Shown here: one piece after another, positions 10,660 to 47,608 of the stretch
Layout of the letters: every line of letters begins with the position of its first letter
Position numbering within the stretch: position 1 is the stretch's first letter
Source: Candidatus Saccharimonadota bacterium
GTDB lineage: Bacteria > Patescibacteriota > Saccharimonadia > Saccharimonadales > Saccharimonadaceae
Direction: 5' to 3'
NCBI GenBank assembly: GCA_024699125.1
Contig: JAILQE010000003.1
Span: 1 to 57,883 of the forward strand
DNA: 57,883 nt
Position numbers and translations under genes: made by a program
The notes under the pieces: generated by a model
What the model saw: the letters and a program-made list of their open reading frames with translations, nothing else
The model's database searches: none
What the model was told of the DNA's origin: nothing

Positions 10660-10720
10660 AATAATCCTTTTAACTTTTATGTTTTCATTATAGCACAGTA
10701 GGAGACAGGTAGGGTATGCT

Positions 10721-10848
10721 ATAAGCGGACACTAAGCAACCTTCTGGGGGTAGTTCGGAGCCTGGCAAGGCGAGAATTTAGCGCCGGCCGCCCATGGCGA
10801 TGGGCCGGCCGGACGCGACCCCCAGAAGGCTGTTTAGTGTCTACTTAT
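10721..10848. repeat. palindromic element, copy A (128 bp)
   Basis: Outer arms at 10721-10751 and 10818-10848 are 31 bases each and reverse-complementary with four mismatches. Between them is a 66-base core (10752-10817) with two internal hairpins: GCCT-GGCA-AGGC, then a long GC-rich stem with a GGCG loop. The core matches copies B (14458-14523) and C (47155-47220). The element fills most of the gap between the divergent genes 10144-10659 and 10997-11257, and its right arm ends just before TATAAT at 10851. Confidence 0.9.
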
Positions 10849-10850
10849 GG

Positions 10851-10856
10851 TATAAT
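10851..10856 (+). promoter_or_regulatory. -10 box for the 86-residue gene
   Basis: TATAAT lies directly after palindromic copy A. A transcript from here would carry a 130-base leader before the 86-residue gene. Confidence 0.6.
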
Positions 10857-10860
10857 ATAT

Positions 10861-10936
10861 ATGTCTCTTGCTATACTTCGGTCACTGGCGATGAGAAAAG
10901 TTAAAAGCTGCGGTTATCGTCATTTATGACCGTAGC
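10861..10936 (+). other. structured leader with possible 22-codon upstream ORF
   Basis: An ATG four bases after the -10 box opens a 22-codon frame (10861-10929, begins MSLAILRSLAM) ending in TGA. Its last eight codons cover the left arm of a hairpin at 10907-10936, with arms GCTGCGGTTAT and ATGACCGTAGC. The stop codon falls at the base of the right arm. This resembles an attenuator layout but no T-tract follows. Confidence 0.35.
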
Positions 10937-14420: not shown

Positions 14421-14562
14421 ATTATAGCACGAAGGCACTTATCAGCCTTCCCGGGGTCGCGTCCGGCCGGCCCATCGCCATGGGCGGCCGGCGCTAAATC
14501 CTCGCGCAGCCGCGCTCCGGACTACCCCGGAAAGACTAATAAATGCCTTCATGTGATATGAT
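14421..14562. promoter_or_regulatory. divergent promoter region built around palindromic copy B
   Basis: The minus -10 box (TATAAT, 14421-14426, for rdgB) and the plus -10 box (TATGAT, 14557-14562, for the permease) are each six bases from their ATG. Everything between them is the palindrome at 14431-14550, so both -35 regions lie in its arms. Confidence 0.7.
14431..14550. repeat. palindromic element, copy B (120 bp)
   Basis: Arms at 14431-14457 and 14524-14550 are 27 bases each, reverse-complementary with four or five mismatches, and unrelated in sequence to the arms of copy A. The 66-base core (14458-14523) is in the opposite orientation to copy A and differs mainly in the small hairpin, where GCCT/AGGC has become GCGC/GCGC; both strands of two base pairs changed so that pairing is kept. 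Confidence 0.9.
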
Positions 14563-34528: not shown

Positions 34529-35746
34529 ATGAATAGAGTTCCCCTGGCGGAGCGGATGCGCCCAACGAAATTGTCCGAAGTGGTGGGGCAAGAAGAAATT
34601 ATCGGCGAAGGTAAAATTTTGACCGAGATTGTGCGCCGTGGCGAGCCGGTGAATTTGATTTTGTGGGGCCCTCCGGGCACCGGTAAAACTACTTTAGCTA
34701 GGATTTTGGCACACGAATTTAAGGCTGACTTTATCGAAATTTCCGCCGTGACTTCCGGCAAAAAGGATGTTGAAGCTGTGGTGGAGCGAGCCAAAGTAAA
34801 CTGGAATTTAAAAACTCGCACCGTGCTGTTTGTGGATGAAATTCACCGTTTTAATAAGGCGCAACAAGACGCATTTTTGCCGCACGTAGAATCTGGTTTA
34901 ATTATTCTAATTGGTGCAACGACTGAAAATCCTTCGTTTGAAGTGATTTCGCCGTTACTTTCTCGCTCACGCGTAGTAGTAGTTTCCCCGCTCAGCAAGC
35001 CTGCGATTGTAACCGTGCTCGAACGCGCGACTAAGGCCGAAGGCGTGAAGATTGTGAAAAAATTAACCAACGCTGGCGGGCCAAAAATTACCGAAGCCGC
35101 AATTGATTATATTGCCGAACTTTCTGGCGGCGATGCGCGCTCGGCACTGGGCGATTTGGAACTAGCCTTGTCGCTTGCGAGCCACGTTGATGTAAAAACC
35201 GCGATTGAGGCTGCCGGCCGTAAAGTGCCGGGCTACGACAAAAAAGGCGACAATCATTACGACACGATTTCGGCGTTTATTAAATCGATGCGTGGTTCCG
35301 ATACCGACGCGGCGCTTTATTATTTGGCGCGCATGGTGCAGGCCGGCGAGGATCCAAAGTTCATCGCGCGGCGCATGGTGATTTTTGCTTCTGAGGATAT
35401 TGGCCTGGCCGGAAACGGAGCTCTTAGCCTTGCCACAGCTTGTTTCCAGGCGGTGGAACGCGTGGGCATGCCGGAATCTGGTTTGATTTTGGCGCACACT
35501 TGTATTGCTTTATCTAAATCTAAGAAAAACCGCGACTCGGCTGATGCTTGGTTTGCGGCGTTAGGCCTCGCAAAAAGAACGATGGGCGAGCCGGTGCCAA
35601 CGTGGCTAAGGAATGCGCCTACGAAACTTATGAAAGAACTTGGTTTTGGCGAAGGACAAAAGTGGGAATCTGGATTCCATTTGGATAAAAACTATTTGCC
35701 AGACAGCATAAAAGACGAAAAGATTTTTAAATCTACTCTTTCGTAA
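34529..35746 (+). CDS. rarA: replication-associated recombination protein A (RarA/MgsA)
   Basis: AAA+ ATPase acting at stalled forks. [19 protein letters not shown], Walker [16 protein letters not shown], Walker [25 protein letters not shown], sensor 1 [22 protein letters not shown] and the C-terminal MgsA/SSB-interacting region ([29 protein letters not shown]) are all present. TATAAT is six bases before the ATG. The last 19 codons are part of a long inverted repeat that continues into the downstream intergenic DNA. Confidence 0.95.
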
Positions 35747-35917
35747 GATTACAATTAGTATTTTTTAAAGACATCTTCTATATTACAAATTTAGTCAGTA
35801 TTACTATTTTGTTTTATACGTAGTTTCTTTTAGTCTTTAAAAAATACTATTCGTAATCTTTCTAAACACCACACCAAAAATCTTTTCGTTTTTTATGCGG
35901 CAAATAGTTTTTCCAAA
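35690..35917. repeat. long inverted repeat spanning the rarA end
   Basis: The left arm 35690-35772 includes the last 19 codons of rarA; the right arm 35833-35917 is its inverted copy with small gaps. The 28 bases nearest the 60-base spacer (35745-35772 and 35833-35860) match with two or three mismatches, and ACGAAAAGATTTTT is identical in both arms. The spacer has no ORF. Confidence 0.85.
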
Positions 35918-40099: not shown

Positions 40100-40207
40100 A
40101 CATACTTCTCCTTCCAAAAACAAATTTTCAAACTACGTGGCCACAAATAACTGACCAAGATTGGTTTAATTATTATAACATAAATACTCGTTTAAATCAA
40201 TGATCCT

Positions 40208-40394
40208 AATCTGGCTGCGGGAGCTCTTGGTTTGCATTTACCAGATTTATGAACGTAAAAAATACAGCATGTACCGAATGAGAAAAATAAGAACCATCCG
40301 AAGGATGGTTCATTTTATTTTTCGAATTTCGCGTACTGCTGTGTTTTTTACAAGTTCATAAGTCGGGCAAACCAAGGGCACCTGCAGCCAGATT
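40208..40394. repeat. 187-bp long inverted repeat at the glyS end
   Basis: The outer ends AATCTGGCTGC and GCAGCCAGATT pair, and complementarity continues through TTGGTTTGC, TTATGAAC and AAAAATAA to a perfect central hairpin AACCATCC-GAA-GGATGGTT (40292-40310). Arms are about 90 bases with gaps. The right end overlaps the glyS stop codon. It probably ends glyS transcription but is much larger than a usual terminator. Confidence 0.85.
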
Positions 40395-41754
40395 AAAGCT
40401 CACTGATTTTAACACGCACTTGCTCTGCCGTATCACGGTCGCGCACGGTGACGGTGTCGTCTTCTAATGTGTCAAAGTCAATCACGACGCATTTTGGCGT
40501 ACCGATTTCGTCTTGTTTGCGGTAGCGTTTGCCGATGTTGCCAGAATCATCCCAAGTCACAAAAGTATACTTGGCTTTTAGTTTGGCGTAGACTTTTTTA
40601 GCTTTTTCCATAAGTTCTGGTTTATTTTTAAGAAGTGGTGAGACGCAGAATTTGTATGGAGCTAGGTTTTCAGGAAGTTTCAAAACGACGCGAGTTTCGC
40701 CGTCCATTTCGTCTTCGTGGTAGGCTTCAGACAAAATAGCGAGGATAGCGCGCTCGAGACCCATCGATGGCTCGATCACGTGTGGCACAAAGGTTTCGCC
40801 AGTGATTTTGTCGCGATATTCCATGTTTTTACCAGAAGCTTTGGCGACGTTTGAAAGATCGTAGTCGGTGCGATAAGCAATGCCCATCAACTCTTCTTCG
40901 CCGTTTGGATAGTTGTACATAATGTCAATTGTGCGTTTGCTATAAAACGCGCGATCTTCTTCTGATACTTCAAGTTCATGAATGTTCTCGGCTTTAAGAC
41001 CTAGTTTGTTCGTAAGAAAATCCAAATATTCTTTGCGAATGGTTTCAAAGTTTTCGGCCCAAGTATTTGGATGGACAAAATATTCAATTTCAAATTGCGA
41101 GCATTCGCGGTCGCGCAAAATATAGTCGCGTGGCGAAATTTCGTTTCTAAATGATTTGCCAAATTGGCAAAGGCCAAATGGTACGGATGGGTAAATAGTG
41201 TCGACGACGTTTTTGTAGTTCGTGAAAATGCCTTGCGCGGTTTCTGGGCGGAGGTAGGCGATGGAGCGGCGAGCAAGTTCTTTGTCGGACTCGCTACCGG
41301 ATTCGTCTTCAGGAAGCACGGCGCCTACGTGAGTAGAGAACATCATATTAAATTTGCGGATGCTTCCCCAGTTGGTCTTGCCACAGTTTGGACAAGCAGG
41401 ACTCACGGCTTTGAATTCTTCGGTCGTGATGCTTTCGGAATAGCCGTCGACGAGTTTGTCGGCGCGGAAGCGGGAATGACATTCGTTACATTCAATCAAT
41501 GGATCAGCAAAGGTGGCCGTGTGGCCAGAAGCTTCCCACGTGGTTGGGTTCATAATGATGGCGGCGTCGATACCAAACATATCGTCGCGCTGGTCTACCC
41601 AGTGGCTCCACCAAGTGTTTACAAGATTATTTTTGAGCATGACGCCAAGCGGACCAAAGTCCCAGGTGCCGGCCATGCCGCCGTAAACGTCTGAGCCTGG
41701 AAAAATAAAGCCGCGGCGCTTACACAAACTTACGATGTCATCTAATTTACTCAT
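40393..41754 (-). CDS. glyS: glycyl-tRNA synthetase, class II alpha2 type
   Basis: Single-chain GlyRS of the archaeal/eukaryal/Firmicute-minor type, 453 residues. CKRRGFIFPGSDVYGG, YLRPETAQGIFTNYKNV, GLCQFGKSFRNEISPRD (motif 2) and PHVIEPSMGLERAILAIL (motif 3) are present, with a Cys4 zinc site (CNEC ... CPNC). ATG at 41752-41754 is six bases after TATAAT. A large palindrome starts at the stop codon. Confidence 0.96.
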   Translation of the reverse strand: MSKLDDIVSLCKRRGFIFPGSDVYGGMAGTWDFGPLGVMLKNNLVNTWWSHWVDQRDDMFGIDAAIIMNPTTWEASGHTATFADPLIECNECHSRFRADKLVDGYSESITTEEFKAVSPACPNCGKTNWGSIRKFNMMFSTHVGAVLPEDESGSESDKELARRSIAYLRPETAQGIFTNYKNVVDTIYPSVPFGLCQFGKSFRNEISPRDYILRDRECSQFEIEYFVHPNTWAENFETIRKEYLDFLTNKLGLKAENIHELEVSEEDRAFYSKRTIDIMYNYPNGEEELMGIAYRTDYDLSNVAKASGKNMEYRDKITGETFVPHVIEPSMGLERAILAILSEAYHEDEMDGETRVVLKLPENLAPYKFCVSPLLKNKPELMEKAKKVYAKLKAKYTFVTWDDSGNIGKRYRKQDEIGTPKCVVIDFDTLEDDTVTVRDRDTAEQVRVKISEL

Positions 41755-46420: not shown

Positions 46421-47608
46421 ATGAAATACCTAGCCGTGCTGGGGCGCCAGCCCGAAATTTCCCTTGCCGAACTTGAGGCGATTTTTTCGCGCGTGAGCCG
46501 CTTTAAAACGGGTCTTGCAACTTTTGCCGCAGACTCCACTCCAGATATTGCTAGGCTTGGCGGAAGCTTAAAACTCGCCGAAGAATTAGATGCTGAGCCT
46601 TTGGAATTTTTGCAGAATTTACCAGAGGGAAAGATCACGCTTGGGGTTTCGGATTACTCCGAGCACGCTTCCCCGCGCAAGGCTCAGGGTGAAGCTTTGA
46701 AACTTAAAAAGATTTTGACTCGCCACGGCCGCAGCGTACGCGTGGTAGAGAACAAAGCTGCGACTCTTTCTACTGCTACTTCCCTTCACAACGGGCTTTC
46801 TGGCGCCAAGCCAAACAAAGTTGAGTTGATTTTGGTTGATAAAACCTGGTGGAAGGTAATCGGCGTACAAGATATCGACGCCTACGCCAAGCGCGACCAA
46901 GCTCGCCCAGCCCGCGATGCCAAGGTTGGCATGTTACCACCAAAACTCGCCCAGATTTTGATTAACCTTTGCGGAAATTTGCCAGAAGGTTCTACTGTTC
47001 TGGACCCATTTTGCGGTACTGGAGTTGTTCTACAAGAGGCTCTCTTGATGGGCTACAAAGCCTACGGCACCGACATCGAGCAACGCATGATTGACTACTC
47101 CCAGAAGAACCTGGAATGGCTCACTGCAAAACCTGAAACGGGTTTTCCTCGAGGCGCGTCCGGTCGGCCCGTCGCCACGGGCGACCGGCGCTCGTCCTCG
47201 CCTTGCCAGGCTCCGGATCCTCTCGAAAAACCATTTCAGGTTTCGCAGGGAGACGCAACCAATTTCTCCTGGGAACAACCAATCGATGCGGTTGCTTGTG
47301 AAGGCTTCTTAGGTCAGCCAATGAGTTTGCCGCCTGCAGAAATCAAACTCAAGTCCGAAAAACAGAGGTGCGGCGCCATTGTGGTAGGCTTTTTGAAAAA
47401 TCTAGCCGAGCAAATTAAACCAAATACGCCAGTTGTGATCGCGGTGCCAGCATGGCTAAGGCCGGACGGCAAATATTCTCGCCTGGAAATCCTTGACGAA
47501 ATAGAGAGACTAGGGTATAATCAATTGAATAAGTCGCGCGAGGGGCTTCTTTACTATCGTGAAGACCAAGTTGTCGCGCGAGATATAATAATATTAAGGA
47601 AGAAATAA
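46421..47608 (+). CDS. Trm11-like tRNA guanosine methyltransferase with in-frame palindromic insertion
   Basis: 395 residues. N-terminal ferredoxin/THUMP-like region (YLAVLGRQPEISLAELEAIF), PPKLAQILINL, SAM motif I VLDPFCGTGVVLQEALLMGYKAYGTDI and motif IV DAVACEGFLGQP. Family members methylate G10 of tRNA; which base this one modifies is not certain. Residues about 235-276 are encoded by palindromic copy C and separate the helix EQRMIDYSQKNLEWL from the GDATNF strand; this low-complexity loop (R, P, S, G rich) has no counterpart I know in the family. TATAAT is six bases before the ATG; the ORF could extend 29 codons upstream, across the neighbour's promoter, which I reject. Confidence 0.82.
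   Translation: MKYLAVLGRQPEISLAELEAIFSRVSRFKTGLATFAADSTPDIARLGGSLKLAEELDAEPLEFLQNLPEGKITLGVSDYSEHASPRKAQGEALKLKKILTRHGRSVRVVENKAATLSTATSLHNGLSGAKPNKVELILVDKTWWKVIGVQDIDAYAKRDQARPARDAKVGMLPPKLAQILINLCGNLPEGSTVLDPFCGTGVVLQEALLMGYKAYGTDIEQRMIDYSQKNLEWLTAKPETGFPRGASGRPVATGDRRSSSPCQAPDPLEKPFQVSQGDATNFSWEQPIDAVACEGFLGQPMSLPPAEIKLKSEKQRCGAIVVGFLKNLAEQIKPNTPVVIAVPAWLRPDGKYSRLEILDEIERLGYNQLNKSREGLLYYREDQVVARDIIILRKK
47124..47248. repeat. palindromic element, copy C (125 bp), inside a coding sequence
   Basis: Arms 47124-47154 and 47221-47248 pair (CTGCAAAACCTGAAA against CTGCGAAACCTGAAA after reverse-complementing). The 66-base core 47155-47220 is in copy B orientation. Relative to A and B, the long stem has C-G to T-A and A-T to G-C pair changes on both sides. 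The reading frame stays open through the element. Confidence 0.92.

Follow-up and report, generated by a model that had tools for sequence, protein, structure and literature searches.

Rickettsia palindromic elements (RPEs) are described as lying in frame in conserved genes as well as in intergenic sequence (Ogata 2000/2002, via PMC10969869 and PMC2229807), and PMC6649704, citing Claverie and Ogata, reports that their arms become less alike with time. In-frame palindromic elements have so far been a curiosity of Rickettsia and Wolbachia, with an unknown way of moving. Here we describe an independent and large natural series from Saccharibacteria, beginning with one copy, hereafter copy C, in a stretch of 57,883 nucleotides (the window) that constitutes contig 5 of a 765,546-bp genome. 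No earlier report of such elements in Saccharibacteria was found in the literature searched.

Copy C lies in a gene for a Trm11-like (m2G10-type) tRNA methyltransferase, an open reading frame of 395 amino acids plus stop at 46421–47608 on the forward strand. The frame matches the Pfam family UPF0020 and, weakly, a TIGR01177-family methyltransferase; its AlphaFold model (mean pLDDT 88) finds its best structural match in archaeal Trm11 (6zxw, TM 0.63/0.76). Those orthologues that carry names are Candidatus Saccharibacteria, many of them of ruminant-gut origin. The whole palindromic copy, a core together with locus-specific paired arms, occupies 133 nt on the minus strand (47120–47252). The arms, at 47120–47147 on the gene-upstream side and 47225–47252 on the gene-downstream side, are 28 nt each, 86% complementary and separated by 77 nt, and the folding energy is −73 kcal/mol versus −53 ± 4 for shuffled sequences (z −5.0). 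The upstream arm is unique to this locus; the downstream arm encodes the native strand FQVSQGD, which is also present in insert-free orthologues. The conserved core, an 82-nt covariance-model hit of 94 bits at 47145–47226 on the minus strand, forms a three-way junction with a small hairpin P2 (TCCGGAGCCTGGCAAGGCGAGGA type with a GGA/GA internal loop; 47195–47217, minus strand, alignment columns 10–32) and a long GC hairpin P3 with bulged C and A and a GGCG loop (47156–47191, minus strand, columns 36–71). The same core with different paired arms recurs in copy A, which is intergenic (10692–10877, plus strand, core 10745–10827), and in copy B (14428–14553, minus strand, core 14448–14530); these three are the covariance-model cores of the window, and the genome holds eight. 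Copy C is not flanked by any direct repeat of at least 12 nt. Only tRNAs exceed the Rfam gathering score in the window, where no family corresponds to the element, and a known RNA family at copy C was rejected because the Rfam matches there are at chance level.

An earlier note on this sequence had proposed that a palindromic element is inserted in frame in the methyltransferase gene, and the inverted repeat, its fold and the uninterrupted frame bear this out: the frame runs through the insertion without a stop or frameshift, as the note had stated. Alignment of orthologues, which the note had suggested as a check, reveals the empty site in many of them, including the closest full relative (L300, 83% identical), where the site is clean. 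Many orthologues lack the insert, and it is therefore not the case that all of them carry the same loop in non-palindromic DNA. The spacer between the NLxW and GDA motifs spans 51 residues here, 22 in L300, 19 in L301 and 18 in several others, and residues 237–271 are missing from most methyltransferase orthologues in the genus. While the in-frame insertion stands, the proposed size of 35–40 residues was slightly too high: the net gain is 29 codons against the closest orthologue and at most 33 against the shortest. The note had also placed the insertion between a helix and the next strand, as a surface loop that would be tolerated. The protein model agrees on both points, with helix 221–235 and strand 272–276 flanking a stretch of residues 239–268 (47135–47224, plus strand) in which almost all have pLDDT below 50, and the insert of copy C is accordingly predicted to be a disordered loop of the enzyme.

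The same site is occupied in further relatives. L310 (75% identical) carries the element at the same position and orientation as copy C, with changes in both arms; in L006 and L310, which are independent assemblies, the arms have co-diverged and the frame is intact. Related but different palindromes occupy the site in L302, L304, L307, G003, G004 and G021. In L303 the arms are kept and the core is gone, and since a CTCGGGG core remnant sits between the arms, this sequence is best read as a deletion scar. The site also appears as a recurrent insertion hot spot, where a GCCCCGTAACGACGGGCGCGA-like sub-family is found in other species (L009, L011, L019, L302, L304 and L307).

A covariance model built from 57 copies detects the core in 33 of the 36 genomes of the genus, which comprises ruminant-gut Saccharibacteria, at up to 24 copies per genome, and in none of 24 genomes from other genera of the order. 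A DNA search for the core recovers it in 19 of the 36 genomes, while 24 genomes of other families gave no match. Motif scanning of 380 genomes of the phylum yields four positives, all of the same genus, and none among 20 genomes from other genera of the same family. Spread by phages was considered and rejected: of 46 exact motif matches in viral contigs, one has a loose P3 match, and its sequence is unlike the element.

The alignment comprises 67 copies, of which 13 are intergenic and 54 fall within open frames of at least 150 codons. Gene-internal copies are oriented 27 each way relative to the host gene; none of the 54 breaks its gene, and there is no sign of a broken gene around the 13 intergenic copies. 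Besides the methyltransferase, the core is in frame in more than 20 genes. The hosts include tRNA synthetases (TyrRS, ValRS, IleRS, LeuRS, AlaRS), LepA, Der, ObgE, TrmD, TruB, QueA, MnmA, Tgt and TsaE, as well as PolA, DnaX, UvrB and UvrC. Empty sites are evident by alignment also in QueA, TrmD, TruB, Der, LepA, AlaRS and LeuRS. Insertion of the element leaves essential host genes intact, and the dispersion of the element together with the empty sites points to mobility. The mnmA genes of two different species (L057 in G006, L110 in G025) each display two in-frame copies, apparently at the same two positions.

Different loci share only the three-way-junction core of about 80 nt, in which two hairpins stand on a short GGG/CCC stem. 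The combined length of P2 and P3 is 61–62 nt in nearly every one of the 67 aligned copies. The CGGAG.../GCGAG arrangement of P2 with its GGA/GA internal loop is almost invariant, and the inner stem of P2 is paired in 100% of the alignment cells; P3 displays compensatory changes in 8 of its 15 pairs. Over the whole core structure, 95.4% of alignment cells are paired and double changes occur at 14 of 25 pairs, giving 162 double-change cells, a number that none of 500 shuffles reached. Towards its ends the core is semi-conserved only in the 3-bp GGG/CCC inner stem and the CGA-GGGG/CCCCGA edge. No parent transposon for the core was identified among the transposase families searched.

Beyond the core, pairing continues at about 90% over roughly 20 columns and then falls to background level. 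The sequence of these outer arms is common only to orthologues, and otherwise differs at every locus beyond the GGG/CCC step. The outer stem of about 20 bp is host sequence, not element sequence. From our reading of the alignments, at least one arm in each informative gene encodes residues that are conserved in insert-free orthologues (FQVxxGDA in the methyltransferase, DVLFVK in QueA, AVIETAP in LepA and ARKFA in TrmD), and the second arm is the inverse complement of the first. The net gain per insertion ranges from about the core length to the core plus about 20 nt, and hence the second arm may either replace or add sequence. Orthologous copies carry matched changes in both arms, revealing homogenisation of the arms at a given locus. 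In QueA, LepA, TrmD and MnmA, the core at a given site points one way in some species and the other way in others, a pattern that independent insertion could also produce. These patterns suggest that the changes caused by a mobile element can extend to codons beyond its borders.

The mispairs of the outer stem indicate which strand folds. On the element strand, G.T mispairs outnumber A.C by 52:9 under neutral scoring (p 2e-8, an optimistic value because orthologous copies are not fully independent); the excess is stable over 15 settings and equal for sense and antisense copies. Read in the sense of the mRNA, the same mispairs show no bias (30:32), and selection via folding of the host mRNA was rejected on this ground. 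Because the bias belongs to the element strand and is absent in the mRNA sense, the functional fold is that of the element strand as such, as ssDNA or an RNA of its own, and not of host mRNA. The core and the outer stem of about 20 bp are maintained as a fold of this one specific strand. The element strand is also the locally C-rich strand in 57 of the 67 copies (mean skew −0.107, p 6e-8, optimistic for the same reason), a placement that holds for the majority of copies in 16 of 16 genomes independently of gene orientation; in the window's own genome the strand asymmetry is weak (3 of 5 copies). The C-rich strand is probably the lagging strand in G006, G007 and G009, where it has fewer genes. 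Several contigs display the opposite arrangement, with most genes on the C-rich strand (C5, C7 and C11 of G000, C3 of G027), unlike those three genomes; GC skew and gene orientation thus disagree within a single genus.

The window and its relatives contain other palindromes. A second, unrelated long palindrome with a terminator-like centre is located at 40207–40395 (−114 kcal/mol, z −16); its centre motif (AAAAATACAGCAnnnCCG) is shared by two sequences of the same genome (L203:5198–5377 and L203:5499–5676), and it is probably another element family with locus-specific arms. The A+T-rich palindrome at 35706–35898 (z −10) is nested: pairs of arms follow one another around a centre of about 60 nt, and one outer arm extends into neighbouring sequence. 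A third motif (GGACATGAAGACTTGGCCAGAGCGGCCCGGAGCGTGTCC type) occurs at L203:8907–9022, with long near-perfect arms, and also in L091 and L120. A general excess of hairpins in the lineage explains these observations only partly: the other long palindromes, too, mostly have centres of 56–131 nt, and look like further element families.

We consider it probable that copy C arose by insertion of a palindromic mobile element that is non-autonomous and specific to this genus, and whose flanks were made palindromic by template switching. An enzyme acting on the folded single strand would move the element, probably near the replication fork. During or after insertion the nascent strand would fold back on the core and copy one flank as template for the other, turning the host flanks into a perfect stem and now and then flipping the core. 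Within genes, only insertions that stay open would survive; once translated, they would form flexible surface loops that affect the enzyme little. Template switching is proposed because homogenisation of the arms and inversion of the spacer are its published signature (PMC8604942, PMC8794818). By itself it predicts equal numbers of G.T and A.C mispairs, and the observed ratio therefore means that the folded strand is itself under selection or chooses the target. In this model, insertion would come first and the arms second.

No mobilising enzyme was found among the Y1 transposases and reverse transcriptases of the 36 genomes. A Y1 transposase was rejected as mover since Y1_Tnp occurs in 2 of 36 genomes, and G000 has one weak match at a contig end; reverse transcriptases, present in 23 of 36, are absent from the carriers G000, G003, G004, G026 and G029 and were likewise rejected. 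The SbcD–SbcC complex cuts long hairpins in other bacteria. None of the 36 genomes of the genus has an SbcD (TIGR00619) match above the family cut-off, which 8 of 14 controls pass, and this may be why long palindromes survive or are tolerated here.

Among other explanations, a functional RNA or DNA signal kept for the host, such as a regulator or a protein-binding site whose arms co-evolve by ordinary compensatory mutation, would account for the strong covariation of core and arms, the invariant GGA/GA and loop positions, and the preference for G.T over A.C on the element strand. It fits poorly with copies that sit in unrelated genes of no common function in both orientations to transcription, that vary from species to species in a given gene and are frequently missing, and that have no Rfam family above gathering score; we regard such a signal as unlikely, though deserving some weight. 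Target choice offers a further alternative, in which the element enters the loop of a pre-existing hairpin of about 20 bp in single-stranded DNA and the arms are older than the core. The G.T bias would follow naturally from this, and in Yersinia the insertion sites of YPAL repeats lie at or beside dyad symmetry (PMC2229807). Core-less hairpins do occur at copy sites in other species (LepA of L170, Der of L186, the methyltransferase of L024), and the net gain in LepA and LeuRS is limited to about the core length, with both arms aligning to native residues. Most true empty orthologues, however, are unstructured, their stability as a rule not exceeding that of windows elsewhere in the gene; the core remnant in L303 makes at least that arm-only hairpin a deletion scar; and these genomes contain too few near-perfect, short-looped 20-bp inverted repeats to account for dozens of insertions. 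Arms that predate the core are quite unlikely on this evidence.

A strong hairpin joining both flanks resembles an excisable structure, and the insert could be spliced out of the RNA or skipped by the ribosome, leaving a protein without it. Neither removal nor bypass would need an open frame, yet all 54 gene-internal copies are in frame with no in-frame stop, and the folding strand is antisense to the mRNA in half of the copies, which makes this very improbable. The named relatives are metagenome assemblies, and palindromic chimeras are described as a known amplification artefact (PMC13265396); an assembly artefact, or an ordinary hypervariable loop palindromic by chance, is nevertheless hardly credible given recurrence of the element in 33 genomes and its co-diverged arms at the same site in the independent assemblies of L006 and L310. 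Insertion of a mobile element followed by template switching between its flanks remains our preferred reading. More tentatively, and with somewhat less than even confidence, these may be mobile elements of a new class that are active as a folded single strand, with host sequence on both sides as an obligatory stem of about 20 bp. The flanks would be rewritten and kept complementary on the element strand, whose orientation relative to replication is fixed. If this is true, a selfish element continuously edits the adjoining codons of essential genes. The series comes from reduced, host-dependent genomes and includes scars as well as empty sites, cores in both orientations and numerous orthologous copies that have co-diverged. 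Two of its features give access to the mechanism: the arms derive from the host locus, and the G.T signature is strand-specific and keeps a fixed orientation relative to strand composition.

Several known systems share individual features with these elements. In template-switch quasi-palindromes (PMC8604942, PMC8794818) arms are copied onto each other, as is proposed here, and the spacer is inverted, inside coding sequence; the yeast cases described there have arms of about 10–16 bp and spacers of a few bases, whereas the spacer in Saccharibacteria is a mobile core of about 80 nt present at dozens of loci. The palindromes of nematomorph mitochondrial genes (PMC6649704) are also long inverted repeats in conserved genes, with both arms coding and actively kept perfect, but a repeated core or mobile unit is not described there. 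MITEs, REP/REPIN, ERIC and YPAL (PMC2229807, PMC3733652) are short structured non-autonomous repeats, some of them translated in frame; the Saccharibacteria element appears to differ in its ends, which are at most semi-conserved, from MITEs also in the lack of a direct target-site duplication of at least 12 nt at copy C, and from REP/REPIN with RAYT in that the REP-type Y1 transposase is missing from most genomes. The closest likeness is to RPEs and their Wolbachia counterparts, described as palindromic non-autonomous repeats of about 100–150 bp that lie in frame in conserved genes of reduced genomes and are tolerated as surface insertions. The Saccharibacteria elements are likewise dispersed palindromic repeats of about 100–150 bp, found in frame in unrelated conserved genes and between genes. 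The parallel with RPEs drawn in the earlier note is sound as an analogy because no copy disrupts a gene: 54 of the 67 persist in frame in their hosts, and the other 13 lie between genes. The parallel does not extend to the outer arms. RPEs carry terminal inverted repeats of their own, whereas here the arms are shared only between orthologues, and the outer stem consists of host sequence that is particular to each locus yet remains paired. The core, moreover, is a three-way junction whose element strand is tied to the C-rich strand. By analogy, then, the element would work like an RPE, similar in kind and set apart by its host-derived arms.
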